Positions 3,756-36,159 of a stretch of DNA of 36,159 nt are shown here, piece after piece. Within the stretch, counting starts at the first letter, position 1; every line of letters begins with the position of its first letter. The position numbers were made by a program, and so were the translations under genes. The notes below the pieces were generated by a model. That model was not told the DNA's origin. It saw only the letters and a program-made list of their open reading frames with translations, and made no database searches. Origin of the DNA: Methanobacteriota archaeon (GTDB lineage Archaea > Thermoplasmatota > Thermoplasmata > RBG-16-68-12); contig JAIBJG010000009.1 of assembly GCA_020029475.1 (NCBI GenBank), positions 1 through 36,159 on the forward strand. Direction: 5' to 3'.

Positions 3756-3801
3756 GCGTGCGAAACATTGCGGCGCGCTTTTCCCAGCAAGTCGCGAAAA
3801 G

Positions 3802-3806
3802 GGAGG
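3802..3806 (+). promoter_or_regulatory. Shine-Dalgarno site fixing the protease start
   Basis: GGAGG lies 8 bases before ATG 3815. Together with the TATA box position this selects ATG 3815 and puts the hydrophobic signal peptide at the protein's true N-terminus. This gene has a leader of about 40 bases, unlike many leaderless neighbours. Confidence 0.65.
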
Positions 3807-3814
3807 AGAAAAGG

Positions 3815-9800: not shown

Positions 9801-11275
9801 CGAACACCCCGATCCAGACGGGTATCGGCTGGACGTTCCCGCCCAACCAGGCCCAGGTCGTCGTGAGCGGGCTCCTCTTCGTGAGCCCGGGATACGCGCC
9901 CTTCGCCCTCGCCCAGGGACTCACCCTGTCCGTGCGGTACGACACGACGCCCGTGACGATTCAGGACTTTGCCCCTGCGCCAGGGTCGACGGTGAGGGAC
10001 CCGCGAGCGTCCATCGTCGCGAACGTGTACGACACGGCCGTGCAGATGATCAACATCGACAGCGCCCGGTTGTGGGTGGACGGCGCGGAGGTCACGCAGG
10101 TGATGCGGAAGCTCCCGACGTTCGCGAGCGCGGTCTCGTGTTGCTACAACCTGTTGACCGTGGCGTATGATCCGCAGACGGACATGGTGGACGGACCCCA
10201 CAGCGCGACCCTCGAGGTCAGTGACATCGCGGGGAACGTCGCGCGAGCGACCTGGTCGTGGACCGTCGACGCGAGTGGTTCGAAGCTCACCCTCACGAGC
10301 CCCGCGGGCGACGGAGTAGTGAGTCGTCCGGCCCTCGTCGTGAGCGGCATGGCGCCCGGCGCGGTGTCGGTGACCGTGAACGGCGTGGCCGTGACCGTGG
10401 ACTCGGTCACGGGTGCGTTCTCGACCGTGGTCATCCTGACCCCAGGGCCGAACACGATCGACGTCATCGCCACGGATGCGGCGGGCAACACGGCCCGGGT
10501 GACGCGGACCATCATCTTCGACACGTCGGGCCCGACGTTGCTGAACGTCCGGTCCAGCGAGCCCTCGAAGACGAACAAGGACACCACGGTGATCAGCGGG
10601 ACCGCGGGTGAGGCCGTGAGCCGCCTCACCGTCGCGGGCCTCGCGGTCCCGGTCCGGGCGGACGGCAGCTTCTCGATCCGGATGCCCCTCGTCGAGGGTG
10701 TGAACACCTTCGACGTCGTGGCGTCGGACCTGGCGGGGAACCGCAACACCGTATCCGTCGTCGTGACCCGGGACACCGTCGCCCCCGCGTTCACGGTGGC
10801 TCCGATCACGCCCTCGATCATCACGGACCTGAGCCGGACCACGGTGAACGTCACCGGGACCGTGAACCTCGTAACGAGCCCGGATGTGAGCCTCGTGACT
10901 GTGAACGGAATCGCGGTGGCCGTCGACCCCGTGACGGGTGCGTTCCGGCGGCAGTTCTCGCTGTCCCTCGGCTCGAACGTCTTCGTCGTCGAGGCGCAGG
11001 ACGATGTCGGGAATCGCCGGACGGCGACGACGTCCGTGACGTACTCGCCCGTCGTCGAGACGATCCAGCGCAGCTACACCTCGTACATCCTCGGATCGGT
11101 CGCGCTGATACTGCTCGTGATCGGGTTCGTCGTCGGATGGCTCTTGCGGGGCGGCAGGCCCCCGCGGGACGTCGTGATGGTGGCACCCGCGGGAACGGTC
11201 GTGGAGACGCGGGCGCCGGAGCCGGAAGAGATCCCGGCTGAAGAGGAAATGACGACCGAGGAGGAAGAGCTATGA
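3815..11275 (+). CDS. Giant secreted subtilisin-family (S8) serine protease with DUF3494 and Ig-like domains
   Basis: This protein of about 2486 residues is predicted to be exported and held at the cell surface. A Sec signal peptide covers roughly residues 1-33 (ASLLVLSALVFSGFVVATSA, then ARADAP). The S8 residues are Asp244 (VIDTG), His703 (QSHGSFVS), oxyanion Asn817 (FGNNG) and Ser952 (FSGTSQATP). The Asp-His gap of 459 residues is far longer than in ordinary subtilisins and holds a VYVDLNFNFDF / DLTGDGVSDVSGG region. A DUF3494 ice-binding-like domain spans about 1198-1400. Modules with an INxATGEI core occur near 610, 1450 and 1510. At least three bacterial Ig-like repeats cover about 2148-2410, followed by one membrane helix (2424-2447) and an acidic tail (EEEMTTEEEEL). 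The stop overlaps the next start (ATGA). Family call is firm; substrate is unknown. Confidence 0.92.
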   Translation: MSNALMRRLASLLVLSALVFSGFVVATSAARADAPAVPDPSAADSSTSVTHSRDSLTPTTAAGDSRLRLALDKMDPSLQPVAQSRQKGYSDVMIYTTNMPQLGQALQAAGARIAYTVDDQTRVQRFVARPWGAAGQMVSIYVQVPNPALLGIAGLDGVAYLQQRDVYAPAIIRDEVTSEEHAQFESVRSQIRDGNFKLPPEITSDKSKGSVSPTSWAIAREHKALDVWRDLGYDGSGVNVAVIDTGEDFGHPSLQGQWAIDTNPGSEYFGWPVMFHPASMEGLFGQGFWTVGSDIDRLPLPYWLSVNDGDVWYSNTDYRANDSNLDGFLVYNNALTPDPVTGLRQYTPQRNPQQYGNWGANFNTRINRNYWIGAPGDPDQIISASGLYRLGVNRDDSLTGLWGEKVGILLVDSVVPEMYDTVYVDLNFNFDFTDDTPVTRANPLAVADLTGDGVSDVSGGLLYFIASSSRVTGEVVIASITGTQTGAALANRGVAVDVTGLRMFEPIALTLESGPTSLYLPGMTEDIIEEFSMGAGDETNTVWSLGSAQTVFGPVTVDLGDLLGLSGFDGRAVDSARLLRGPNTDFSIGLIYDISNSTTTLAAGTDYSINLATGEITWLHNFPAGDFVDIIYQLDSYTLNAGAGTVTFNAPLPTGWRLLATYDDGVPIPYSDIYAANHGLDLFVPANGDLVAFHGDFDFGQSHGSFVSSTIAARPFGNLASPFFEVFGTAPGAKIMGIAACCNVAGPIGLFGSIEDQRDFAAVGYDGITNGFDDASIISNSFGSTQTVNTGFSFEDRWLYDFAQRNPTVTTLIAFGNNGAGYATGAPGGTSPGVITIGAGTSGDYRVLFGFDGGEGNYEFPLCPGPPPIDPATCVGIGAASGDGPGPYGDHAYFSSRGPTLLGQPKPDVVSIGSFAVEAAPLNLYCTNPGTGLDDPAWCDGNFAFDIFSGTSQATPVTSGIAALGIAAYRDTHGGAFPTNTQVRAALKAGADDMHRDILQQGAGWTNALRSTRIMAELDGITSSPSSWIPGSYQGIKRPAFVNLLAAGANDATTITVTNHHPTLAKNVQVSDAVMQRMPNGAFSWAVSVGTGTGRNYILKADGIYAGDGATLLMAEPWTAQWNTADFTKITWTYDSAAYTAPTSLRLDVFDWYDNQHPTFELVAESTLTTYTNQTIMIGVNGETKAKVFNPGTTGFACSQAGVDLRSATGFAVLGGASVTNTGPTIVTGDLGVSPGTSITGFPPGTVIGTIHNNNPIAAQAIADLTTAYNDAAGRTLCPITVAGNIGGQTLAPGLYKSTSSLAVSSGDLTLDAQGDPNAVWIFQVASTLDTTPGRQVILAGGAQASNVYWQVGTSATIGTTSAFVGTIMADQSVTLNTGATLEGRALARIAAASLDSNIINQPGPGTGGTGTPHNFYRDSVGLMTDISPGPCPLIPDPTLYWINVATGEIILCAPLLDGERLYGDYTVYVLIRAGDSVFLSHTGIVPGSETVFLNGNVWAPSNYVINYATGEFTFLTGLALGDVVEISYLWDHPQIYDGFDERNRMTVAVFGGNANSVHESFGRLPTKMHDGLVLNIRSGAAAAIPATLIVEFYQKADWTWLTESAGSLNIPAAGGTSPVTVTATVPAGAQPGLYEGAVYLTDAGTTTTIPVVINVPVTGFPVNLGGNVPSTSLYDNNGVIQGARSGWRQIGDSRYVWADLSLASVPGRRMIYNAILQGRLSDPDMLVFSCIPDPDGYTADATYGPCRMSQLAATKENVGVTDTLFPNKEFMHSDVVSGLIAFQLKAFGSRGTYANGAEPLVANIGIMQATMSGPGNPLGPTEVSTATNRLTGSVPLVVWANVPLYNGLGAAVTEQVSVVCAANLPVTPYPYPGGDFETYLFNAPNKARCDVTANTISVTWVAQFFNGADIDYGIFQDLNCDGVYTVANSFAGTSMATGANPETFSAGFPPPGCYWVHAAGFDATGSTTTTITMNVNRIGVSPFALVNPPTTDVAPNTPIQTGIGWTFPPNQAQVVVSGLLFVSPGYAPFALAQGLTLSVRYDTTPVTIQDFAPAPGSTVRDPRASIVANVYDTAVQMINIDSARLWVDGAEVTQVMRKLPTFASAVSCCYNLLTVAYDPQTDMVDGPHSATLEVSDIAGNVARATWSWTVDASGSKLTLTSPAGDGVVSRPALVVSGMAPGAVSVTVNGVAVTVDSVTGAFSTVVILTPGPNTIDVIATDAAGNTARVTRTIIFDTSGPTLLNVRSSEPSKTNKDTTVISGTAGEAVSRLTVAGLAVPVRADGSFSIRMPLVEGVNTFDVVASDLAGNRNTVSVVVTRDTVAPAFTVAPITPSIITDLSRTTVNVTGTVNLVTSPDVSLVTVNGIAVAVDPVTGAFRRQFSLSLGSNVFVVEAQDDVGNRRTATTSVTYSPVVETIQRSYTSYILGSVALILLVIGFVVGWLLRGGRPPRDVVMVAPAGTVVETRAPEPEEIPAEEEMTTEEEEL
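7406..8015 (+). repeat. DUF3494 domain-coding segment, copy 1
   Basis: This segment inside the protease gene encodes about 203 residues from CSQAGVDLRSATGFAVLGG to SLDSNII. It matches copy 2 in the next gene along its whole length. One run of 32 bases (7685-7716) is identical to 11659-11690, synonymous positions included. Confidence 0.85.
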
Positions 11276-14200
11276 AGCCCGTGACCGCGGCCCTCGGGCT
11301 CGCGTTCCTCATGGTCGCCGTCCTCTTCGCGATCCCGGCGGGGCCCGCCCGAGCGGCGGACCCGAACGGGCCGAATGCATGCGGCCAGGCCGGGGTCCCC
11401 CTCGGAGCGGCCGCCGGTTTCGGCGTCCTGGCGGGCTCGACGGTGACGAGCACCGGCATGACCACGGTCACCGGCGATCTCGGCGTGAGTCCCGGCACCG
11501 CGGTGACGGGCTTCCCGCCCGGAATCGTGGTCGGGGCGATCCACGCGGGCGATCCCGCCGCTGCCGCGGCGATCGCCTCCCTGACGACTGCGTACAACGA
11601 CGCGGCTGGGAGGACCCTGTGTCCGATAACGGTTGCCGGAAACATCGGAGGGCAGACCCTCGCCCCCGGCCTCTACAAGTCGACGTCGAGCCTTGCGGTG
11701 TCCTCCGGAGACCTGACCTTGGACGGTGGGGGCGACGGGAACGCGGTCTGGATCTTCCAGATCGCGTCCACCCTCACCACGACCTCCGGCCGTCAGGTGA
11801 TCCTGGCGGGCGGCGCGAGGGCTTCCAACGTGTACTGGCAGGTCGGGAGTTCCGCGACGATCGGGACGACCTCGGTCTTCGTGGGGACGATGATGGCGGA
11901 CCAGTCCATCACATTCACCACCGGCGCGACGCTGGAGGGTAGGGCGTTGGCACGGATCGCCGCCGTCACGCTGGACGGGAACGAGGTCACCAAGCCCGCG
12001 CCCGCCACCGACGGCGGCGTCGGCGGCGTGGACCTCTCGGGGGAGCGTGGAGGGAACTTCCGGATGGCGGTGCTCTCGGCACCGAGCTGGAACCCGGCCT
12101 CCACGAACCCCACGGACGCCCCGGTCCACAACCTCGTGTGGGACACCCTGGCCCGGCCCGACCCTGTGACGTCGGAGCCGAAGCCGTGGGCCGCCCTCGG
12201 CTGGACCCCGGACAGCGCGGCGAAGACGATCACCGTCTCGATCCGCTCGGGGCTGCGGTGGTCCGCGGGCGGCGCGATCACGAACGCGGACCTCGTGCGG
12301 ACGTTCACGCAGTACGGGTTCACCGTGACCGCCTCGGGCTCCAACCTCGTGTTCAACTTCACGGCGGGGGAACCCGGAAGGTTCTACTCGGAGGTCCTGT
12401 ACGACTGGATTGCATGGGACTCGGTGGGGACCCTGGGATACAGCGGGATGTTCGCGCCGACGCCGGGGAACACGAACCTGCTCGCAACGAACACGCACTA
12501 CTGGGCGGGCCCCCCGAAACTGGACTCCGTGACCCTCGTCGTGGCGTCGTCCGTCGATGACGCGGCGTGCCGGCTCCTGAAGAACCGCGCATTGCCGACG
12601 CCTCCGGCGGGGACGGTGGACTTCATCGGGTTCGGCCTCCTGCCGAACGACCTCACGGACGAGCGCGCGTGCACGGCGTACGGAGGGTTCCTGGACGGCC
12701 TGGGCAACCCCCTGAACAAGTCCCTCGTGAACGCGAACGCGTCCCGCGCAGAGCCGAGCGTGTCCGCGGTCCACAACCCTGGCCCGCGGTTCATGTACTA
12801 CTGGCTGAACGTCGCGGGCGGCGGGGCGATGGGGGACGTGAACTTCCGACGGGGGCTGTACCTCCTCGTGAACAAGCAGCTGGCGGTGCAGATCGAGCCG
12901 AGCTCGAAGGTGACACACTCCCTGATTAGCCGGGACGACCAGTTCTGGTTCATGCCCACATGGGAGGTGATCCGGGACGCGGGCTTCACAACGATCCGGG
13001 ACCCGCTCGGCACCCCGCGCCAGGACACGAACCCGTTCCTCGGGGCCCAGGCCCTTGACATGGCCGGGTACCTCGACCGGGACGGGGACGGCTGGCGGCA
13101 GACGCCGACAGGCGCGGCGTTCTCGATCAACGTCGGCGTCGTCGGGTTCAGCGTGGACCCGCGGAAGACGACGATCGTGGGCGCGTACATCGACGTGCTC
13201 CGGCGGCAGGGCGTGAACGCGAACCTGATCACGTACAACTCGTGGACGGACCTGCGGGCCGCGGAAGCGAGCGGCGCGTTGCAGGTCGCCCTCGAAACGT
13301 ACGATCCCGGGACCTCGAACCCGCGGTGGATGGAGACGTTCCAGCCGATCATCGACGCGAACGACCCGAGCACGGTCACGCACCTCGGCCTCGGGAAGAA
13401 CTCGTACACGCTCGCGGAGCGCAGGCTGCACTACAATCACGTGCCGTACTACAACAGCCTGTGCGCCTGCGTGCCGCCCGTCGTGCACTACGAGACGCTC
13501 GAGGCGTTCGACCGGTACTCGTTCTCGGGATGGGTCGAGCGCTTCGGCGGGATCAACAACGTGTGGTCCTTCGGAGGCCTGCGGCTGCCGGCGGTGGGCA
13601 CCCTGTTCGTCTCGATCACGCCGTTCACGAGGTCCGTGACCTCCGGCGGGTCCACGACGATTCAGATCGTTGTGTCGGACGCCTCCGGGGCCGCGGTCCC
13701 CGGCGCGTCGGTCGTGATGACCCAGACGGCGGGGTACGTGACCCCATCGAGCGGAGTGACGGACGCGAGCGGGCGGTTCCAGCCCACGTGGACGGCGCCG
13801 ACGGTGACCCAGGACATGGACGCGACCGTGACCGCGATCGTGGGCAAGGCAGGCTACGTCGGAGCCGTCGTGTCGACGGGACTGACGACGCACGCGCCCT
13901 TCCGTCCCCTGGACATCCTTGTGGTCGTCCAGACGCCGACGCTGGGTGCGGGCAACACCACGACCGTTACGGTCACCGTGACGAGCCTGGGCGCGTTCGT
14001 CCCGGACGCGGACGTCTCCCTCTCGATCTCCCTGCCGGGGGGCCAGCTGAACCCCAGCACCGGCCGGACCGGGTCCAACGGGGTGTTCACCGCGACGTTC
14101 ACGGCGAACCCGTCCGTCCGATCGATCTACCGGATTGACGTGACCGCGAGCAAGCCAGGGTACGCGCCCGGTGCCGGAGCGGGGTCCGTGATTGTGACGC

Positions 14201-14337
14201 CCGCCCCGAACGACCCGGACAAGTTCACCCGGGTGACGACGATCATCCCGGGATTCGAGACAATCGCGGTCCTCGGGGCGATCGGAGCGGCGGTCGTGAT
14301 CCTGCGGGTGCGGAGCCGAACGCGAAGGGAAGGCTGA
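11272..14337 (+). CDS. Surface peptide-binding protein: DUF3494 + SBP family 5 + Ig-like domains + PGF-CTERM-like tail
   Basis: This 1021-residue protein has a signal peptide at about 1-32 (ALGLAFLMVAVLFAIPAGPARA). A DUF3494 ice-binding-like domain covers about 37-236. A family 5 extracellular solute-binding domain (oligopeptide/nickel type) covers about 255-780: it opens with GGNFRMAVLSAPSWNPAS and keeps the typical LVWDTLARPDP and VSIRSGLRWS motifs. Two Ig/invasin-like domains span about 785-985 (SGAAVPGASVVMTQTAG and DVSLSISLPGG). The C-terminus reads IPGFETIAVLGAIGAAVVIL followed by RVRSRTRREG, a PGF-motif, hydrophobic helix and basic end, as in archaeosortase substrates. Family 5 proteins usually hand peptides to an Opp/Dpp permease; none is in the window. 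Coupling to the protease gene suggests capture of its products. The domain combination is unusual. Confidence 0.9.
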   Translation: MKPVTAALGLAFLMVAVLFAIPAGPARAADPNGPNACGQAGVPLGAAAGFGVLAGSTVTSTGMTTVTGDLGVSPGTAVTGFPPGIVVGAIHAGDPAAAAAIASLTTAYNDAAGRTLCPITVAGNIGGQTLAPGLYKSTSSLAVSSGDLTLDGGGDGNAVWIFQIASTLTTTSGRQVILAGGARASNVYWQVGSSATIGTTSVFVGTMMADQSITFTTGATLEGRALARIAAVTLDGNEVTKPAPATDGGVGGVDLSGERGGNFRMAVLSAPSWNPASTNPTDAPVHNLVWDTLARPDPVTSEPKPWAALGWTPDSAAKTITVSIRSGLRWSAGGAITNADLVRTFTQYGFTVTASGSNLVFNFTAGEPGRFYSEVLYDWIAWDSVGTLGYSGMFAPTPGNTNLLATNTHYWAGPPKLDSVTLVVASSVDDAACRLLKNRALPTPPAGTVDFIGFGLLPNDLTDERACTAYGGFLDGLGNPLNKSLVNANASRAEPSVSAVHNPGPRFMYYWLNVAGGGAMGDVNFRRGLYLLVNKQLAVQIEPSSKVTHSLISRDDQFWFMPTWEVIRDAGFTTIRDPLGTPRQDTNPFLGAQALDMAGYLDRDGDGWRQTPTGAAFSINVGVVGFSVDPRKTTIVGAYIDVLRRQGVNANLITYNSWTDLRAAEASGALQVALETYDPGTSNPRWMETFQPIIDANDPSTVTHLGLGKNSYTLAERRLHYNHVPYYNSLCACVPPVVHYETLEAFDRYSFSGWVERFGGINNVWSFGGLRLPAVGTLFVSITPFTRSVTSGGSTTIQIVVSDASGAAVPGASVVMTQTAGYVTPSSGVTDASGRFQPTWTAPTVTQDMDATVTAIVGKAGYVGAVVSTGLTTHAPFRPLDILVVVQTPTLGAGNTTTVTVTVTSLGAFVPDADVSLSISLPGGQLNPSTGRTGSNGVFTATFTANPSVRSIYRIDVTASKPGYAPGAGAGSVIVTPAPNDPDKFTRVTTIIPGFETIAVLGAIGAAVVILRVRSRTRREG
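11380..11990 (+). repeat. DUF3494 domain-coding segment, copy 2
   Basis: This segment encodes the N-terminal domain of the peptide-binding protein (CGQAGVPLGAAAGFGVLAG to VTLDGNEVTK). It is the counterpart of 7406-8015, about 3.97 kb upstream in the same orientation. Confidence 0.85.
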
Positions 14338-27217: not shown

Positions 27218-27508
27218 TCACTGGAGCTTCGCGATGACCTTCGTCGCCTCGCCCTGCGTCCACGCCTTCAGCGTCGTCGTCCGGGCGTTCCCCGCGCTCC
27301 CGATCTGGAGGGCGAGCTGCATTACGGCCTCGTCGCTCGGCATCTCCCCGACCCCGACGAAGTCGTACTGCCCCATCGTCAGGTACACCTCGAGCCTCCC
27401 GCCGAGCTTCGACGCCATCTCCTTTGCGATGTCGATCCGCTTCGGCGACTCCCTCACGTTCCGTACGCCCTGGTCCGTCCAGTTCCCCAACACGAAATAG
27501 TGCGGCAT
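27218..27508 (-). CDS. GYD-domain protein
   Basis: This 96-residue protein matches the GYD family of small dimeric alpha/beta-barrel-like proteins: MPHYFVLGNWTDQGVRNVRES, then KEMASKLGGRLEVYLTMGQYDFVGVGEMPSDE, with the GxYDxV core, and IGSAGNARTTTLKAWT. No reaction is established for the family. ATG 27508 directly precedes the fold and has a purine-rich ribosome site (GGAGAGGAG). It diverges from the flavoprotein gene at 27598 and lies upstream of the rhodanese on the same strand, 110 bases apart. Confidence 0.85.
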   Translation of the reverse strand: MPHYFVLGNWTDQGVRNVRESPKRIDIAKEMASKLGGRLEVYLTMGQYDFVGVGEMPSDEAVMQLALQIGSAGNARTTTLKAWTQGEATKVIAKLQ

Positions 27509-27554
27509 GGTCTCCTCTCCCCCGGAAGGGGACCCGCGGATGCCCCTGCGGGCG

Positions 27555-27567
27555 GAAAAAGGTATCC
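27555..27567 (+). promoter_or_regulatory. TATA-like element of the GMC flavoprotein gene
   Basis: GAAAAAGGTATCC is centred about 36 bases before GTG 27598. It is the only AT-rich element in the 89-base divergent gap. Confidence 0.4.
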
Positions 27568-27597
27568 CGCCCTCCCCATTCCCCGCCGGAGGCGTCC

Positions 27598-29610
27598 GTG
27601 GAGCTTTCCGGCGCGGAACGGGTGACCCTCCGGCACCTCGCGGACACGATCGTCCCCCGGACGGGGGACGCCGGGGAGCCCCTCGCCGGGTCCGCGAGCG
27701 ACCTCGGTGTGGACGCCCTCGCGGCCCGGGCAATCCTGGAGTACCAGCCGCCGGACGTTCAGCGGCAGTTCCGTCAGCTCCTGCGGGCGGTGGAGAGCCC
27801 CGTCCTCAACCTCCTGCTCACGGGCCGCCCCGCGCGGTTCCGGGAGCTGAGCCCCGAGGCGCGGGAAGCGTATGTCCTCGGGTGGGCCCGCAGCCGCCTC
27901 GGGGTGAAGCGGCGGGGGTTCCACGCAATCAAGCGACTCGTCGCGTTCCTCTACTACACCGCCCTCACGGACGACGGCCGGAACCGGAACTGGCCCGCCC
28001 TCGCGTACCCGGGGCCGGACGACGCGGGGCGGGAGACCCGCCACACGCCGCCCGACCTCGTCCTCGTCCCCATGGCGGTGGACCGGGAGACGACGATCGG
28101 GACGGACCTCGCCGTGATCGGCTCCGGGGCGGGCGGCGCGGTGATCGCCGCGACCGCGGCGAAGGCGGGGCATCGGGTCCTGGTGATCGAGTCGGGCTCC
28201 CTCCAGACGCCGGAGACGTTCACGCAGCGGGAGCTCCCCGCGACGGACTCGATGTTCGAGCGGCACGGGCTGATGACGTCGAGGGACTTCGGGTTCGGCG
28301 TCCTCCAGGGGCGGACCGTGGGCGGCGGGACCGCGATCAACTGGATGACGTGCCTGCGGCCGCCGAAGTTCACGCTTGAGGAATGGGAGCGGGTCCACGG
28401 GATCCCGGGGGTCGCGGGACCCGGGTTCCAGGCCGCGATCGATGAAGTGTGGACCCGCCTCGGGGTGAACACGGAGGAGGCGGTCCTGACCCCCACGAGC
28501 GAGGCCCTCCGGAGAGGGTGCGAGGCGCTCGGGTACACCCTCGGCGTGGACTTCCACGTCACCCCGAAGAACGCGAAGGGGTGCGGGAACCGCTGCGACT
28601 ACTGCAGCTTCGGGTGCGTGTACTCCGCGCGGCAGTCCACCCTCGTCACGTACCTCCCGGATGCCCAGCGCGCCGGCGCGAAGTTCCTGTTCGACACGGA
28701 AGCCCGCGCCCTCCTGTTGAAGGAGGGGGCCGTGGCGGGCCTAGAGGCCGTCCACCGGAGGGACGGGAAGGAGATCCCTGTGAAGGTGAAGGCCCGCGCA
28801 GTCGTCCTCGCGGCCGGCGCGATTCACACCCCCGCGATCCTCCTCCGCTCGGGGATCCGGGACCCCGGCGTCGGGCACGGGATCCGGTTCGACCCTACGA
28901 CCGCCGTCGGTGGGGTGTACGACCGCCCGATCCGGATGTGGGCGGGGGTCCCGCAGACGATCCACGTCGACCGCTGGCTCCCGATGAACGGGAACCACGG
29001 GTTCTGGCTCGAGACCGTCCCCGCGCACCCGGGGCTCACGGCCCTCGGGTTCCCGTGGCGGGGAGGGCGGGCCCACAAGGAGGTGATGCGGGAGTATCCG
29101 CGGATCGCCGCGAACATCATCCTCGTCCGGGACCGGAGCGCGGGGCGGGTGACAATCGACCGTCAGGGCCATCCCGTGATCACCTATCGGATGTCCCGCG
29201 GGGACCGGGGCACGATGATGCGGGGGATCGTGGAGTCCGCAAGGATTCACATCGCCGCGGGGGCGAGAGGGGTGTGGAGCCTCCACACGGAGTCCTGCGA
29301 GATCCCGCTCCGGGAGGGGCGGATCGCCCCGGCCGAACTCGACGGGTTCGCGGACCGGGTCGCCCGCCTCGGGATCCGGCCGAACGCGCTCGCCCTGTTC
29401 ACCGCCCACGCGATGGGGAGCGTCCCGATGGGCGCGTCCGAACGGCGGCCGACGAAGCCGACGGGGGAGCTCCGCGGGGTCCGGAACCTGTTCATCGGGG
29501 ACGGGAGCGCCCTTCCGAGCGCGGTCGGCGTGAACCCGATGATCACGATCATGGCGATGGCCCGCCGGACCGCGGACTTCGTCGTGCAGGCCCTCCGCCT
29601 CGAGTACTGA
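27598..29610 (+). CDS. GMC-family FAD oxidoreductase, long-chain-alcohol-oxidase-like
   Basis: This 670-residue flavoprotein should oxidise a primary or sugar alcohol with FAD. About 1-125 is a helical gluconate-dehydrogenase-subunit-3-like region. The FAD-binding Rossmann fold starts at 170 (DLAVIGSGAGGAVIAA, with Gly175, Gly177 and Gly180; the acidic residue is in VLVIESG). GRTVGGGTAINWMT is the GMC FAD motif. A cysteine cluster, KGCGNRCDYCSFGC, resembles plant/yeast long-chain fatty alcohol oxidases. AVVLAAGAIHTPAILLRSG is the second GMC signature. The active-site His is in FTAHAMGSVPMG, with the paired Asn in GVNPMITIMAMA. The start is GTG 27598; the frame open upstream is antisense to the GYD gene. 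Ends convergent with the Gfo/Idh gene, four bases apart. Substrate unknown. Confidence 0.88.
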   Translation: MELSGAERVTLRHLADTIVPRTGDAGEPLAGSASDLGVDALAARAILEYQPPDVQRQFRQLLRAVESPVLNLLLTGRPARFRELSPEAREAYVLGWARSRLGVKRRGFHAIKRLVAFLYYTALTDDGRNRNWPALAYPGPDDAGRETRHTPPDLVLVPMAVDRETTIGTDLAVIGSGAGGAVIAATAAKAGHRVLVIESGSLQTPETFTQRELPATDSMFERHGLMTSRDFGFGVLQGRTVGGGTAINWMTCLRPPKFTLEEWERVHGIPGVAGPGFQAAIDEVWTRLGVNTEEAVLTPTSEALRRGCEALGYTLGVDFHVTPKNAKGCGNRCDYCSFGCVYSARQSTLVTYLPDAQRAGAKFLFDTEARALLLKEGAVAGLEAVHRRDGKEIPVKVKARAVVLAAGAIHTPAILLRSGIRDPGVGHGIRFDPTTAVGGVYDRPIRMWAGVPQTIHVDRWLPMNGNHGFWLETVPAHPGLTALGFPWRGGRAHKEVMREYPRIAANIILVRDRSAGRVTIDRQGHPVITYRMSRGDRGTMMRGIVESARIHIAAGARGVWSLHTESCEIPLREGRIAPAELDGFADRVARLGIRPNALALFTAHAMGSVPMGASERRPTKPTGELRGVRNLFIGDGSALPSAVGVNPMITIMAMARRTADFVVQALRLEY

Positions 29611-30853: not shown

Positions 30854-32833
30854 ATGGCGGTTCACGCCTTGGAAATCGGTGGCCCGGGCGAGGCCGGACC
30901 TTTGATGCCGTCGGATGGAGAGCCCGAGCTTCCGATCGCGAAAGAGCTCCGGAACATCGTCGGGCCGAAGGCCCGCGTGATCTGGCGGGGGGCCGAGCTC
31001 GACCTGTACGCGAGGGACCAGGCGGACATCCCCGATTCCCTCCGGAAGATGCTGATCCGGACGACCCCGGACGCCGTCGTCCAGCCGGAGAGCGTGGAGG
31101 ACGTCGCGAACGTCGTGTCCGCGGCGTACGACCTCGGGATCCCGATCGTCCCGCGGGGGGCCGCTTCCTTCCCTCTCGGAGGCTCCGTCCCCACGATGGG
31201 GGGCGTCGTGATCGACCTCAGCGCCCTCCGGAGGATCCTCGGGGTCGACAAGGAGCGGTTCCTTGCGGACGTCGAGGCGGGGGTGCGGTGGTCCACCCTC
31301 CAGGAGATCCTCCGCGGGGAGGGGCTCACGCTCCGGACGTACCCGAGCTCCTGGTTCTCCACCGTCGCGGGATGGGTCGCCACGGGGGGGTACGGGATCA
31401 ACAGCCTGAAGTTCGGCCACCTCTCGAAGAACGTCCAGGCCCTCCAGGTCGTCACGCCCACGGGAGGGATCGAGTGGGTCGACGAGTCCCACAAGGACTT
31501 CCCCCTGTACTTCGGGACGGAGGGGCAGCTCGGGCTCATCACCCGGGTCGTCGTGAAGGTTCGGCTCCCGCCGAAGAGCTCGGAACCCCTCCTCGTGCAG
31601 TTCACGGAGGCGGCGGAGGCCCTCGAGTACGCGAAGGCCCTCGCCGCCGCGACGACCCCGACTCACATCCTGTACTTCGACCCGCACCGGATGCACACGT
31701 TCAACCGCCTCATGGAGGAGCCGTTCCTCCGGGAGGCGCACGCCCTCCTGATCCACACGGAGAACGGCGTTGGCGGGCGAGAGGCGATGGAACTCGCCGC
31801 GACCCGGAAGGCCTCGGTCGCCCCGCGGCACCACGGGAGCTACCTGTGGCGGGAACGGTTCTTCCCCCTGAAGCCGAAGCGGCTCGGCCCCGGGATCCTC
31901 GGCGCGGAGCTGATGTTCGACCAGGCCGTCGCCGCGGGCGCGTTCGAGCGGTGGCATCGCATCGCGACGGCGGCGGGGCTGGACCCGGAGCTCGAGGCCC
32001 ACGTGATCGACGGCGGGAGAGTCCTCGGGCTGTGCACGTGGCTCACGGACCCCCGCCAGGCCTGGGCGTTCACCCTCCATGCCGCCCTCTCCGTCCGCCT
32101 CGCGCTGGAGGGGATCAAGCTCGGCGGGATTCCGTACGGCACGGGGATCTGGCAGACGCCGCTGATGGCGGACCGGTTCGGGAAGGCGCAAGCCAACCGC
32201 CTCCGGGAGGAGAAGCGGCGGCGGGACCCGAAGGGCCTCCTCAACCCCGGGAAGTTCTTCCGGATCCGATCCCGGTACGGCAACGTCCTCGGCCTCGCGA
32301 TGTCCCCGCGGATGGCGAAGCTGGGGATGGCCCTTGCGGGGCCGATGATCCCGTGGCTCGCCCGGCGGGCGTACAAGCCCCCGAAGGAGCACGGTGGCAC
32401 CCTCGAGCGCTCCCGTCTCGAGTGCTCCGCATGCGGCGCGTGCATCCCCGTGTGCCCCGCGTACCTCGCGACGAACTCGGAGATGGTCACGGGGCGCGGG
32501 AAGCTCCAGGTCGCGGCGCGTCTGCTGGAGGGTGAGCCCATCACCGCGGAGGACGCGCAGTCCATGTTCCTCTGCATCCACTGCGGCGCGTGCGAGCGGG
32601 TGTGCCAGAGCGAGCTCCCCCTCGTCGCCGCGTACGACGAGCTCGAGGGGCTCGTCGCGGAGCGGTTCGGCATCCCGAAGGAGCGGATCGATGCGTTCTC
32701 CCGGCGGGTCCAGGACAACGACGAGTACCGGCAGCTCCTCGCGGCGGGGATGGTGACCCCCGCGTTCTACACGTTCAAAGACCGGGTCGTGGCGGGGACG
32801 AGCGCGGCCGCGAAGCGGAGGGGCGCCCCGTGA
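30854..32833 (+). CDS. GlcD-GlcF-like FAD-binding and Fe-S oxidoreductase
   Basis: This 659-residue protein combines an FAD-linked oxidase domain (PCMH type) with two [4Fe-4S] motifs. The FAD-binding part has TTPDAVVQPESVEDVANVV and VPRGAASFPLGGSVPTMGG, then WSTLQEILRGEGL and STVAGWVATGGYG, as in glycolate/D-lactate dehydrogenases. RDPKGLLNPGKFF is the usual end of that domain. Cysteine sets CSACGACIPVCP (about 523-534) and CIHCGACERVC (about 573-583) follow. The GlcF cysteine-rich CCG domains that normally follow are absent. It probably oxidises a 2-hydroxy acid and passes electrons to Fe-S partners. Its stop overlaps the start of a ferredoxin-domain protein (GTGA), so those partners may be the next two subunits. 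An alternative ATG lies at 30905. Confidence 0.9.
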   Translation: MAVHALEIGGPGEAGPLMPSDGEPELPIAKELRNIVGPKARVIWRGAELDLYARDQADIPDSLRKMLIRTTPDAVVQPESVEDVANVVSAAYDLGIPIVPRGAASFPLGGSVPTMGGVVIDLSALRRILGVDKERFLADVEAGVRWSTLQEILRGEGLTLRTYPSSWFSTVAGWVATGGYGINSLKFGHLSKNVQALQVVTPTGGIEWVDESHKDFPLYFGTEGQLGLITRVVVKVRLPPKSSEPLLVQFTEAAEALEYAKALAAATTPTHILYFDPHRMHTFNRLMEEPFLREAHALLIHTENGVGGREAMELAATRKASVAPRHHGSYLWRERFFPLKPKRLGPGILGAELMFDQAVAAGAFERWHRIATAAGLDPELEAHVIDGGRVLGLCTWLTDPRQAWAFTLHAALSVRLALEGIKLGGIPYGTGIWQTPLMADRFGKAQANRLREEKRRRDPKGLLNPGKFFRIRSRYGNVLGLAMSPRMAKLGMALAGPMIPWLARRAYKPPKEHGGTLERSRLECSACGACIPVCPAYLATNSEMVTGRGKLQVAARLLEGEPITAEDAQSMFLCIHCGACERVCQSELPLVAAYDELEGLVAERFGIPKERIDAFSRRVQDNDEYRQLLAAGMVTPAFYTFKDRVVAGTSAAAKRRGAP

Positions 32834-34206
32834 CGTTCAAGCGGTACCACATCCCAATCGCCCCCGCGCCCTCGCGGCGGCCCTGGACCCGCGTGAACGT
32901 CCACCGGGACCTCTCCCGCTGCCTGAACTGCGGCACGTGCATCGACTCCTGCCTGTACGGGGTCCACGACCGGCGGGATGCGGACACGCGGTTCATGGAG
33001 GAGCCCGAGGACCACCTGTGCCGGGTGTGCTTTCGGTGCGTCGCGGAGTGCCCCGTTAACGCACTCAGCTTAGAGCCGAACGTGGAGTTCACGGAGGCGG
33101 GGAACGGGCTCTTCAAGCCCGAGGTCCTCCGGACGATCGCGAACGAGGCGGAGGGGGGCCGGATCCCCGTGACGGGGGCGTGCTACCGGGGGCCGTTCGG
33201 CGGTCAGGGGTTCGACGGGATGTGGACGGACATGTCGGAGATCGTGCGGCCGACCCGGGACGGAATCCACGGGCGGGAGTACATCTCCACGAGCGTGGAC
33301 GTCGGCGCGCGTCCCACGTTCCTCGACTTCCGGAGAGGCGGGCCCTGGACCCCGCCACGGGAGCTCCCGGTCCCGTTCGTCCTCGACGTCGCGAACCCCG
33401 GGGCCCCGCCCGCGGGGATCCTCGCCTCCGTCGTGAAGGCCGCGAAGGCGTTGGACACGTACGCGATCGTCCCCGCCCGCTCCTGGCCCGCCGTGGGAGC
33501 GGACCTCCAGGGGCACGTGATCGTCCGCCTCTCCGAGGGCGAGACCACGGGATTCGAGAAGACGGCCGGGGTCGAGGCGACGTACCGCCACGGGGGTGCG
33601 GACCTCGTCGGCCTGAGGCGGTCCCTCCCGCACTCGATCGTCTCCCTCCGGGTCCCCGTCACGGCGTACGACCGCGACGCGGTGGACATGGCCCTCGAGG
33701 CGGGGGTCGACCTCATCCACTACACGGCCGACTGGAAGGACGTGGATTCGATCGACGGCGTGAACACGTACATCGCGACCCTCCGCGACCTCCACGGATA
33801 TCTCGTGGACCGGGCGGTGCGGGATACAATCACGGTCCTCGCGAGCGGGCCGATCGCGGCCGCGGAGCACGTCCCGAAGACGATCATCCTCGGGGCGGAC
33901 CTCGTCGGCGTGGACCTCGCCCTATACGGGGTGATGGAGTGCGTCCCCCCGAACCACGCCCTCCACCTCGGCCGCTTCCCGGAGGACTTCCCGCTCTCCG
34001 ACGTGCCCTGGGGGACGCAGCGGGTCGTGAACCTGATGAACGCGTGGCGGGACCAGCTCCTCGAGATCCTCGGCGCGATGGGGATGCGGGAGGTCCGGCG
34101 GCTCCGCGGGGACATGGGGCGCGCGATCTTCCAGGACGAGGCGGAGAGGGAGGCGTTCGCGGACATCAAGGTCCTGGCCCCCGCGAAGGAGGTGGTCGCG
34201 CGGTGA
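32830..34206 (+). CDS. Ferredoxin fused to a degenerate glutamate-synthase-like domain
   Basis: This 458-residue protein opens with two [4Fe-4S] motifs: Cys31, 34, 37 and 41 (CLNCGTCIDSC) and Cys64, 67, 70 and 74 (CRVCFRCVAEC). The rest aligns in outline with the GltS FMN domain of the next gene: TDMSEIVRPTRDGIHGREYI near the start, ILGADLVGVDLALYGVMEC where the partner has GADGVILGTAELIAVGC, and WGTQRVVNLMNAWRDQLLEILGAMGM at the end. It lacks the partner's GGGMSFGSVS, GEGGYP and GGYGGTGAAP FMN/substrate motifs and has only one cysteine of the [3Fe-4S] set. It is thus probably a non-catalytic electron-transfer or scaffold paralogue. GTG 32830 overlaps the previous stop and the end overlaps the next start, both by four bases. 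Confidence 0.82.
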   Translation: MTFKRYHIPIAPAPSRRPWTRVNVHRDLSRCLNCGTCIDSCLYGVHDRRDADTRFMEEPEDHLCRVCFRCVAECPVNALSLEPNVEFTEAGNGLFKPEVLRTIANEAEGGRIPVTGACYRGPFGGQGFDGMWTDMSEIVRPTRDGIHGREYISTSVDVGARPTFLDFRRGGPWTPPRELPVPFVLDVANPGAPPAGILASVVKAAKALDTYAIVPARSWPAVGADLQGHVIVRLSEGETTGFEKTAGVEATYRHGGADLVGLRRSLPHSIVSLRVPVTAYDRDAVDMALEAGVDLIHYTADWKDVDSIDGVNTYIATLRDLHGYLVDRAVRDTITVLASGPIAAAEHVPKTIILGADLVGVDLALYGVMECVPPNHALHLGRFPEDFPLSDVPWGTQRVVNLMNAWRDQLLEILGAMGMREVRRLRGDMGRAIFQDEAEREAFADIKVLAPAKEVVAR

Positions 34207-35741
34207 TCACTCTGGACAAGGACCCGCCCCACGTCGAGGAGCTGAAGCGGCTCCTCCCGGGCCCGCAGGCGTACCGCGCGTACATCTCGAAGTGGCTCGT
34301 GAACGTGAACGACGCGTGCATCGACTGCGGGATCTGCGCGGAGGTGTGCCCGTTCGGCGTCCACGAACGGAAGGAGGGGCACCTCCACCTCTCCGCGCCG
34401 AAATCCCAGCGGTGCATCGGGGAGGCGTGCGAGACGGAGGACTTCTACTGCGTGAAGCACTGCCCCGTGGACGCGATCACGATTGAGAAGAACCCGCTCG
34501 CGGAGGTCCTCGGGAACCCCCGGTGGACGAACGAGCTGATCATGGCGACGTGGGTGATGTCGGAGACGGGGAAGGCACCGGAGCGCGGGCTCGAGTACCG
34601 CATCGGGAGGGCGGGGGGCGGCTTCGACCTCCTCGACTTCGAGTTCCCGCCCTCGAAGCGGAGGTTCGACCCGGACTCCCTCACGGGGATCGACACGTCC
34701 CTCCCGCTGAACCGCCGCGGCAAGGGCGCGAAGATCGAGATCCCGATCCCGTGGTACGGGGGCGGCATGTCATTCGGCTCCGTCTCCCTCCAGATCATGC
34801 TCGCCCGCGCGATCGCGGCGACCGCGTGGAACACGTTCACGTCCACGGGGGAGGGCGGGTACCCGGAGGAGCTCGTCCCGTACAAGGACCACGTGATCAC
34901 GCAGGTCGCGACGGGGATGTTCGGGGTGCGGGAGGAGACTGTCCAGCGGGCCCGCCTCGTGGAGATCAAGTACGCGCAGGGCGCGAAGCCGGGCCTCGGG
35001 GGGCACCTCCTCGGGGACAAGAACACCCCGGTCGTCGCGAAGATGCGGGAGACCGTGGCGGGGACCTCCCTCTTCTCCCCGTTCCCGTTCCACTCCGTGT
35101 ACTCCGTCGAGGACCACCGGAAGCACGTGGACTGGATCCGGGCGATGAACCCGACCGCCCTCGTGTCTGTGAAGGTCTCCACGCCGACGGACGTGGACAT
35201 GGTCGCGGTCGGCTGCTACTACGCCGGGGTGAACATCGTCCACCTCGACGGCGGCTATGGAGGGACGGGCGCGGCCCCGGACATCTCGAAGAAGAACATC
35301 GCGATGCCAATCGAGTACGCGGTCCCGAAGGTCCACAAGTTCCTGGAGAAGGAGGGGATCCGGGACGAGGTCCTCCTGATGGCGTCCGGGGGGATCCGGA
35401 CCGCGTGGGACGCCGCGAAGGCGATCGCCCTCGGGGCGGACGGGGTGATCCTCGGGACGGCGGAGCTGATCGCGGTGGGGTGCGTCCTGTGCGGGAACTG
35501 CGAGTCCGGCCGCGGGTGCCCGTGGGGAATCACCACGACGGACCCGGAGCTCAGCCAGTTGATCCCGCCGGAGTGGGGCGCGCAGCGGATCTCGAACATG
35601 TACCGCGCGTGGCAGCTCCAGCTCCGGGAGGTCCTCGCCCGCCTGAACCTCGACTCCGTGCGGGACCTGCGGGGCCGGACGGACCTCCTCGTCCGCATCC
35701 CCGATCCATCCTCGGTCTCCGGGAAGGTGGCGAAATGGTGA
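34203..35741 (+). CDS. Glutamate synthase FMN subunit with N-terminal ferredoxin domain (archaeal GltB2 type)
   Basis: This 512-residue protein is the synthase core: it reduces 2-iminoglutarate, formed from 2-oxoglutarate and ammonia, to glutamate with FMN. The N-terminus has a [4Fe-4S] set, Cys39, 42, 45 and 49 (CIDCGICAEVC), and a second set, Cys71, 76, 83 and 87. The GltS barrel follows: WYGGGMSFGSVS, TGEGGYPEEL, KYAQGAKPGLGGHL, HLDGGYGGTGAAP and ASGGIRTAWDAAKAI. The [3Fe-4S] motif is at Cys427, Cys430 and Cys433, with Cys439 before PWGITT. PEWGAQRISNMYRAWQLQL ends the domain. It is complete. GTG 34203 overlaps the previous stop; its own stop overlaps the amidotransferase start by seven bases. 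No GltD-type NADPH subunit is in the window. Confidence 0.92.
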   Translation: MITLDKDPPHVEELKRLLPGPQAYRAYISKWLVNVNDACIDCGICAEVCPFGVHERKEGHLHLSAPKSQRCIGEACETEDFYCVKHCPVDAITIEKNPLAEVLGNPRWTNELIMATWVMSETGKAPERGLEYRIGRAGGGFDLLDFEFPPSKRRFDPDSLTGIDTSLPLNRRGKGAKIEIPIPWYGGGMSFGSVSLQIMLARAIAATAWNTFTSTGEGGYPEELVPYKDHVITQVATGMFGVREETVQRARLVEIKYAQGAKPGLGGHLLGDKNTPVVAKMRETVAGTSLFSPFPFHSVYSVEDHRKHVDWIRAMNPTALVSVKVSTPTDVDMVAVGCYYAGVNIVHLDGGYGGTGAAPDISKKNIAMPIEYAVPKVHKFLEKEGIRDEVLLMASGGIRTAWDAAKAIALGADGVILGTAELIAVGCVLCGNCESGRGCPWGITTTDPELSQLIPPEWGAQRISNMYRAWQLQLREVLARLNLDSVRDLRGRTDLLVRIPDPSSVSGKVAKW

Positions 35742-36159
35742 GCGAGCCGGACCTGATCATCCGGTCCCGCAGCGACCTCAAGTCCCCGGTGGCCGCCGTG
35801 AAGCCGGAGGACGAGGGCGGGTGCGGCGTCGTGGGCCTCGCGTCCACGGTCCCGGTCCGGGGCTACCACATCCTCTGCCCCGTCGAGCAGATGCACAACC
35901 GCGGGAACGGGAAGGGCGGTGGCGTGGCGGCGGTGGGCCTCGTCCCGGAGCAGATGCGGGTGCCCGGGGACGTCCTGAAGTCCCACTACCTCCTCCAGAT
36001 TGCGTACCTCGACGAGGGCTCCCGCCCCGAGGTCGAGAAGGAGTTCGTCACCCCGCACTTCGACGTCCACACCGCGTATGCGATCGAGAGCCTCGAGGAC
36101 CACGCCACCATCGGGCTCGACGTGAAGCCGCCCCTCGTGTGGCGGTACTTCGTCCGCGT
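35735..36159 (+). CDS. Class II glutamine amidotransferase subunit of glutamate synthase, 3' end cut by window edge
   Basis: From ATG 35735 the frame is open to the last base, about 141 residues. EDEGGCGVVGLAS is the class II (Ntn) amidotransferase start, where the Cys (residue 30) is the nucleophile that frees ammonia from glutamine. MHNRGNGKGGGVAAVGL matches the usual 'l.hRG.dg.GiA' block. The 29 residues before the Cys would have to be removed or tolerated; in bacterial GltB the Cys becomes the N-terminus after propeptide cleavage. It overlaps the FMN subunit stop by seven bases, so it should supply ammonia to that subunit. The end of the gene, and any alpha-subunit gene after it, lie outside. 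Confidence 0.87.
   Translation, partial: MVSEPDLIIRSRSDLKSPVAAVKPEDEGGCGVVGLASTVPVRGYHILCPVEQMHNRGNGKGGGVAAVGLVPEQMRVPGDVLKSHYLLQIAYLDEGSRPEVEKEFVTPHFDVHTAYAIESLEDHATIGLDVKPPLVWRYFVR

Follow-up and report, generated by a model that had tools for sequence, protein, structure and literature searches.

A probable multisubunit glutamate synthase with an exchangeable electron-input subunit in archaea and bacteria

Introduction

Glutamate synthase is a main nitrogen entry point into biomass. Of its electron donors, NAD(P)H and ferredoxin have been described, and F420H2 has been proposed. The last gene cluster of the window, i.e., of the whole 36,159-nucleotide stretch of DNA analyzed here, raises the question of where a glutamate synthase would obtain its electrons if its genes are led by a flavoprotein gene and a GltD gene is lacking. 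Putative F420-dependent glutamate synthases, FGltS(I/II) (PMC3448663), and FrhB10 clusters of ANME-1 (PMC9012536) are on record, and the gltB operon of Geobacter (GSU1235-1239) includes a pyridine-nucleotide oxidoreductase gene. A search of the open-access literature for the gene set found here retrieved no description, with only F420-GltS and the Geobacter gltB operon turning up. This agrees with the initial annotation, which knew of no complex of such make-up.

Results

The cluster consists of four genes on the forward strand at 30854-36159, with consecutive overlaps of 4, 4, and 7 bases:

Flav, 30854-32833, + strand: ATG start, 659 aa; FAD flavoprotein with D-lactate-dehydrogenase fold and, at the C-terminus, a domain with two [4Fe-4S] clusters; proposed role, electron input
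FAD-binding domain of Flav (residues 72-209), 31067-31480, + strand: PF01565, 7.8e-35
Two [4Fe-4S] motifs of Flav (Cys 524/527/530/534 and 574/577/580/584), 32420-32614, + strand: PF13183 and Cys conservation
DegG, 32830-34206, + strand: GTG start, 458 aa; ferredoxin plus degenerate GltS/FMN-type TIM barrel; pseudo-subunit, proposed Fe-S relay
DegG signature W132-E150, WTDMSEIVRPTRDGIHGRE, 33223-33279, + strand: from a 56-sequence alignment
GltS, 34203-35741, + strand: GTG start, 512 aa; combines a ferredoxin domain with an intact glutamate synthase domain of the FMN/[3Fe-4S] type
Amid, 35735-36159, + strand: ATG start, 141 aa, open-ended; class II glutamine amidotransferase, incomplete because the contig stops within it
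Presumed nucleophile Cys30 of Amid, after a 29-residue leader, 35822-35824, + strand: from comparison with the family

Coordinates and reading frames of the four overlapping genes had been given correctly in the initial annotation, and the Flav-DegG-GltS-Amid arrangement is shared by 12 more genomes of the class (13 including the window's own) as well as by dozens of loci beyond, which rules out a chance overlap of unrelated open reading frames. Among the 80 best named loci from archaea and bacteria, 57 show it. The complex was present at no fewer than 557 loci in one scan, its hosts being methane-oxidizing and methylotrophic archaea, sulfate reducers, Chloroflexi, Aminicenantes, and Asgard archaea; the complex type is widespread but apparently undescribed. 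At present the operon genes are probably annotated one by one, under names such as GlcD, ferredoxin, or “glutamate synthase-related” protein.

The contig stops at position 36159 inside Amid, the last gene visible in the window. PF14691, the N-terminal domain of GltD/Nfn, had no match in the whole assembly of the window's genome (91% complete), extending to the genome what had been noted for the operon, namely the lack of GltD. A GltD gene directly downstream, named beforehand as evidence against a flavoprotein-fed synthase, was not found in this genome, but a single Thermoplasmata family does carry an FNR-like plus GltD-like pair (Nfn/Sud arrangement) at this place.

Within the presumed catalytic core, GltS matched Fer4 and Glu_synthase (PF01645, 301 bits). 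Its Cys 427/430/433/439 are invariant, and K262, R282, and E303 align with K972, R992, and E1013 of Synechocystis Fd-GltS, which we take to be the 2-oxoglutarate and coupling residues, while Synechocystis Q978 corresponds to a His, which the canonical archaeal enzyme has there too. Judged by these retained [3Fe-4S] cysteines and 2-oxoglutarate/coupling positions, GltS would carry an intact glutamate synthase FMN domain. The window's 141-aa Amid fragment alone gave no Pfam match. Full-length relatives of about 860 aa carry a GXGXG domain; the homologue from a locus of the same genus (L035, 858 aa) matched GXGXG with 2.9e-11 and, weakly, GATase_6. Since the EGGCGV.G leader/Cys as well as HNRGNGKGGG, GHQRYPTKG, HNGD, and TDTE are invariant or nearly so among the relatives, these are predicted to be class II glutaminases with a processed N-terminal Cys and a GXGXG domain, of which the window copy is an incomplete example.

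DegG is, as far as its residues tell, a catalytically dead sister of GltS with a lost active site. Pfam assigned Fer4 and a marginal Glu_synthase match (20.8 bits, cut-off 20.4); GEGG, KPG, and GGTG are lost, while the ferredoxin cysteines are retained. Modeled as a single chain (pLDDT 85), it adopts the TIM-barrel fold of FMN oxidoreductases with flavocytochrome b2 as best match (4.5e-8). The signature W132-E150 is mostly invariant, and residues 139-147 within it are predicted to be disordered (pLDDT < 50) when DegG is modeled alone. Orthologues occur in the 12 further genomes of the class. A sequencing wreck can be dismissed, since DegG is ancient and full-length and 56 sequences retain its ferredoxin cysteines together with a near-invariant motif.

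Natural gene fusions join Flav to DegG in two loci (L063, L125) and DegG to GltS in ten. The distance correlation of Flav was 0.96 with DegG, 0.92 with GltS, and 0.88 with Amid, and the GltS tree contained a single complex-type clade in which Flav was gained once and replaced by MvhD once. Flav was thus acquired a single time and then inherited together with DegG, GltS, and Amid. Conserved order, fusions, and co-inheritance bear out that the four genes belong together, and the lead gene, whose absence elsewhere had been named as a refutation, is clearly conserved.

Discussion

Taken at the level of sequence, the locus probably encodes a distinct type of glutamate synthase with several subunits, of which the electron-input subunit is exchangeable and Flav is one version of it. 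DegG, GltS, and Amid (glutaminase and GXGXG in one chain) would form the core: Amid would hydrolyze glutamine, the ammonia would be tunneled to the GltS FMN site and added to 2-oxoglutarate, and electrons would reach this FMN via [4Fe-4S] clusters, with DegG acting both as a scaffold and as an Fe-S relay. In the window's lineage, the input subunit would be Flav with its FAD and two [4Fe-4S] clusters. A physical complex of the four proteins, the direction of electron flow, and glutamate as product are what we infer.

Electron input is the most likely role of Flav because MvhD replaces it in place and EtfBA lies beside cores devoid of it. In one lineage MvhD, usually accompanied by MetV-MetF, takes the position of Flav, and the two are mutually exclusive (57 Flav loci, 15 MvhD loci, none with both). 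EtfBA directly follows Amid in two other lineages with Flav-less cores (L085, L134); in L134 the ferredoxin motifs are lost from the core, while EtfA bears a ferredoxin domain. Since several lineages run the core without a recognizable input module, Flav is not essential to it. The archaeal lineages L077, L078, L082, and L089, for example, have the core alone, which together with the 2[4Fe-4S] domains on both DegG and GltS would fit a plain ferredoxin-dependent glutamate synthase with free ferredoxin docking on DegG/GltS and Flav as a separate or regulatory enzyme sharing the operon. We regard this as rather unlikely, as it leaves the Flav-DegG fusions, the single gain and long co-inheritance of Flav, and its replacement by a known electron-transfer protein at the same position unaccounted for.

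What Flav might oxidize is a different matter. It matched FAD_binding_4 (7.8e-35), FAD-oxidase_C (1.2e-5), and Fer4_8 (2.6e-10), and its single-chain model (mean pLDDT 88) had mouse LDHD (8jde) as best PDB match (E 3.6e-26, TM 0.83 on target). With glycolate oxidase GlcD/GlcF it shares the GlcD-type FAD domain and a GlcF-like Fe-S region. However, a CCG (GlcF/HdrB) domain gave no Pfam match in Flav, as the initial annotation had stated, and both NCBIfam scores are far below cut-off (GlcD TIGR00387: 115 bits versus 568), ruling out GlcDEF glycolate oxidase. The fold of FAD_binding_4 plus FAD-oxidase_C, typical of metal-dependent D-2-hydroxyacid dehydrogenases, is common to Flav, LDHD, and LctD of the lactate dehydrogenase-EtfAB complex (TM 0.80-0.83 on target), but Flav has its own [4Fe-4S] domain, whose cysteines are shared by 47 or more of 48 homologues, and is tied to GltS.

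The initial annotation proposed that Flav oxidizes a 2-hydroxy acid such as lactate, glycolate, or 2-hydroxyglutarate, with the electrons driving glutamate formation; with D-2-hydroxyglutarate as donor, the overall reaction would be redox-neutral. This version draws on the LDHD-like fold and on the invariant R335, which aligns with a conserved Arg of D-lactate-dehydrogenase-type enzymes. Against it, the metal ligands of LDHD, presumably H398, H405, and E442, are not conserved as a set: among the 48 aligned Flav sequences, the first position is His in 35, the second is never His, and the third is Pro/Tyr instead of Glu, whereas Y428, G431, and W433 are invariant. Because two of the three ligands are absent throughout, the 2-hydroxy-acid donor is weakened and we consider it unlikely; of the earlier proposal that the lead flavoprotein feeds GltS, the input role gains from the MvhD replacement and the adjoining EtfBA, while the electron source is not supported.

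The nitrogen side poses a puzzle. In the window's genome (91% complete) glutamine synthetase had no match, and it was undetected in 10 of the 13 complex-bearing genomes of the class versus 13 of 87 without the complex (Fisher 1.2e-5, treating genomes as independent despite their relatedness), which is odd for a glutamine-dependent enzyme. Of the 13, 12 retain a glutamine-dependent carbamoyl-phosphate synthetase. In other lineages, glnA beside the operon would suggest an ordinary GS/GOGAT pair: it is the gene immediately upstream of Flav in ten archaeal loci (ANME-1/Methanocellales-type), often with amt and PII, and loci of ANME-1, Methanocellales, and Chloroflexi have these three genes next to the operon. 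Amination of a substrate other than 2-oxoglutarate or use of another nitrogen donor, e.g., in an N-methylglutamate-synthase-like reaction, would accommodate the missing glutamine synthetase, the altered GltS substrate region (SPFPFHSVYSVEDH and KKNIAMP versus SPxPHHDIYSIED and RDHAGxP in canonical GltS), and an MttB-family gene near the operon, but appears least probable given the glnA-amt-PII neighborhoods, the retained K972/R992/E1013 equivalents, and the restriction of MttB to a single family (f8).

The proposed multisubunit synthase differs from known systems. Bacterial and plastid enzymes (GltBD, Fd-GOGAT) share its FMN-site, [3Fe-4S], and glutaminase-coupling residues, but have a single long alpha chain served by GltD (NADPH) or by free ferredoxin, and they lack Flav and DegG. 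The canonical archaeal split form (L046, L137) likewise has ferredoxin plus FMN/[3Fe-4S] GltS, a class II amidotransferase, and a GXGXG domain, yet as separate amidotransferase, ferredoxin+FMN, and GXGXG proteins, whereas the operon joins amidotransferase and GXGXG in one chain and adds DegG and Flav. GltS of the complex, about 33-34% identical to canonical archaeal GltS, forms one clade distant from the three canonical proteins compared. One genome (G071) carries both systems. The putative FGltS(I/II) (PMC3448663) and the FrhB10 clusters (PMC9012536) share the idea of a GltS with a dedicated input flavoprotein, there an FrhB/FdhB-type F420H2 dehydrogenase and here a D-LDH-fold FAD protein, and are not known to include a dead sister subunit. 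The FrhB/FdhB-type domain is absent from all four operon proteins (Pfam).

More tentatively, the complex may represent an undescribed class of anaerobe glutamate synthase, wiring nitrogen assimilation directly to catabolic electron sources by module exchange (LDHD-like flavoprotein, EtfAB, or MvhD-MetV-MetF, the last standing for the oxidation of methyl-tetrahydrofolate). Lineages with Flav would then oxidize an organic carboxylate directly to power 2-oxoglutarate amination, without NADPH or free ferredoxin. The gene swaps among input modules offer concrete tests of the substrate oxidized by each. If an exchangeable input subunit and a conserved dead sister hold true, the picture of nitrogen assimilation would change for many uncultured anaerobes.

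Organization of the operon

The initial annotation had described a glutamate-synthase-like operon of four genes, and all four reading frames proved to be real at the positions claimed for them:

30854-32833, + strand: lead flavoprotein (Flav), 4-base overlap with DegG
32830-34206, + strand: ferredoxin plus degenerate GltS barrel protein (DegG), 4-base overlap with GltS
34203-35741, + strand: ferredoxin plus intact FMN domain protein (GltS), 7-base overlap with Amid
from 35735, + strand: class II glutamine amidotransferase (Amid), open at the end (36159) of the contig (G000:C7)

Domain searches assigned FAD_binding_4, FAD-oxidase_C and a two-cluster Fe-S domain, and no CCG domain, to Flav, a ferredoxin and a GltS match barely over threshold to DegG, and a ferredoxin and a strong GltS FMN domain to GltS. 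A complete Amid from the same genus (858 aa) bears a GXGXG domain; thus, a normal GltS alpha chain is represented here by its two outer parts joined directly, with no FMN domain between them. EGGCGV.G, the GXGXG region and the motifs for glutamine binding and the oxyanion are all retained in Amid. The whole G000 assembly (91% complete) encodes one glutamate dehydrogenase; no GltD/Nfn-type protein, in line with the annotated lack of GltD, no other true GltS and no glutamine synthetase were detected in it.

In GltS, K262, R282 and E303 correspond to Lys972, Arg992 and Glu1013 of Synechocystis Fd-GltS and are kept, and the Gln978 position carries His, a substitution shared with the canonical archaeal form; the functional roles of these Synechocystis residues are those given in the literature. 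The four cysteines close to the [3Fe-4S] site do not vary, and the substrate-side stretches SPFPFHSVYSVEDH and KKNIAMP are specific to the complex-type family. DegG is predicted to fold as an FMN-oxidoreductase TIM barrel (pLDDT 85; best PDB matches flavocytochrome b2 and IDI-2). It is devoid of the GEGG, KPGxGG, HSVYS and GGTG motifs and retains a C-terminal phosphate-binding-like segment and the ferredoxin cysteines. The cysteine cluster corresponding to [3Fe-4S] is still found in most relatives and is lost in the window's lineage. The near-invariant DegG motif WTDMSEIVRPTRDGIHGRE is predicted to be partly disordered when DegG is modelled alone, which would be the behaviour of an interface.

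Elsewhere, the window holds two adjacent giant genes (3758-14337), both encoding an ice-binding-like domain. In the first (2505 aa) this is accompanied by glucodextranase-B repeats and a subtilase domain, in the second (1021 aa) by an Ig-like domain and a match to family-5 solute-binding proteins. A GMC oxidoreductase with a fused N-terminal gluconate-2-dehydrogenase subunit-3-like domain lies at 27424-29610, its true start probably being downstream of 27424.

Conservation and spread

Twelve further genomes of the class show the order Flav-DegG-GltS-Amid over whatever length their contigs cover, and DegG is present in 40 of 395 genomes of the phylum (at least 85% complete). A DegG-alignment scan of named genomes yielded at least 557 loci; gene order was tallied on the best 80, six of which, judged by length, seem to lie on contigs already counted in the class set. 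They comprise archaea (Thermoplasmata, Methanomassiliicoccales, Methanophagales/ANME-1, Methanocellales, Thermoproteota, Bathyarchaeota, Asgard archaea) and bacteria (Desulfobacterota-type, Chloroflexota, Aminicenantes, Acidobacteria, Nitrospirota and other groups). The lead gene is conserved well outside the class, Flav preceding DegG in 57 of these 80. Natural fusions join Flav to DegG (loci L063, L125) and DegG to GltS (ten loci), so that recurrent order, fusion and co-inheritance all speak for the four genes as one unit. The pairwise distances between Flav proteins track those of DegG (correlation 0.96), GltS (0.92) and Amid (0.88), as expected of any co-inherited operon, and hence are evidence of co-inheritance rather than of contact. 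In a maximum-likelihood tree made by a quick method and containing several open forks, complex-type GltS forms a single group with full support, set apart from three canonical archaeal GltS; if the latter are taken as outgroup, a single gain of Flav suffices, and the loci with an MvhD-type protein are nested within the group as a single replacement.

The proposed electron-input position

Flav is absent from 15 of the best 80 loci. These have an MvhD-type [2Fe-2S] protein instead, either immediately before DegG or at the head of a MetV-MetF pair in that position; by hand tally, none of the 80 carries both Flav and MvhD. MetV, usually with MetF, also occurs in 12 of the 80, the identities resting on Pfam. 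Further arrangements are EtfB-EtfA directly after Amid (L085, Thermofilaceae, and L134, in which the fused core has lost its ferredoxin motifs and EtfA has a ferredoxin domain) and the core of DegG, GltS and Amid alone in some archaeal lineages (L077, L078, L082, L089). The phylum also includes lineages f50 and f36 (L131, L132, L133, L135), which have the core and no input module, and in which DegG and GltS have both lost their ferredoxin motifs. In f8, a Thermoplasmata family, and named relatives, an FNR-like and GltD-like pair follows Amid by ~120-230 bases; an MttB-family methyltransferase and an MFS transporter also adjoin the f8 operon (L036:1250-4056, equivalents in L041-L043).

Gene sets beside the core
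L096:6690-8999, MvhD-MetV-MetF
L101:6646-8806, MvhD-MetV-MetF
L111:6732-8898, MvhD-MetV-MetF
L114:6500-8899, MvhD-MetV-MetF
L129:2133-4197, MvhD-MetV-MetF
L041:14335-16737, FNR-like and GltD-like pair, Nfn/Sud arrangement
L042:2578-4900, FNR-like and GltD-like pair, Nfn/Sud arrangement

The most satisfactory account of this pattern is that the glutamate synthase core stays constant and the module feeding electrons into it can be exchanged. The association of Flav with the core and its proposed role as electron feeder of GltS are well supported on comparative grounds, MvhD replacing Flav upstream of DegG.

The suggested 2-hydroxy acid donor is not supported. The Flav model resembles mouse D-lactate dehydrogenase (E 3.6e-26, TM 0.83 on target), whose three metal-binding positions are His, His and Glu. 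Among 48 aligned Flav sequences the first His occurs in only 35, and none has the Glu or the second His; invariant in their stead are Arg335, Tyr428, Gly431 and Trp433. Flav is therefore no standard metal-dependent hydroxy-acid dehydrogenase.

Product and glutamine supply

A glutamine synthetase gene lies directly upstream of Flav in ten ANME-1/Methanocellales-type loci, often preceded by amt and PII, and nitrogen genes are also close to the operon in Chloroflexi and sulfate-reducer loci. These neighbours in other lineages argue for glutamate as the product. Within the window's class, glutamine synthetase was found in only 3 of 13 complex-bearing genomes versus 74 of 87 others (Fisher p 1.2e-5, ignoring kinship among about five lineages). 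PF00120 was not found in G000, G001, G002, G026, G038, G051, G069, G077, G091 and G098, two of these ten being single-contig assemblies, and the gene is common among relatives. Twelve of the 13 retain glutamine-dependent carbamoyl-phosphate synthetase. These organisms thus probably have access to glutamine, with peptides as one conceivable source: besides the giant protein with the subtilase domain and the solute-binding-protein family 5 fusion, the window encodes an M29-type peptidase. The core reaction may also be ammonia-dependent or altered.

Relation to known glutamate synthases

F420-dependent glutamate synthases have been proposed for methanogens (PMC3448663) and FrhB-linked GltS clusters recorded in ANME-1 (PMC9012536); these likewise place a dedicated flavoprotein beside GltS, but one of a different family from Flav. 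In Geobacter, an RpoN-linked gltB operon includes a pyridine-nucleotide oxidoreductase gene (PMC2725144). No description of a Flav/DegG-type enzyme was found in the open-access papers covered, subscription journals being outside the scope. The proposed complex belongs among the glutamate synthases. In sulfate reducers and their relatives, where MvhD-MetV-MetF of the methylene-tetrahydrofolate reductase type adjoins the core, this arrangement points to a possible direct coupling of Wood-Ljungdahl methyl oxidation to glutamate formation.
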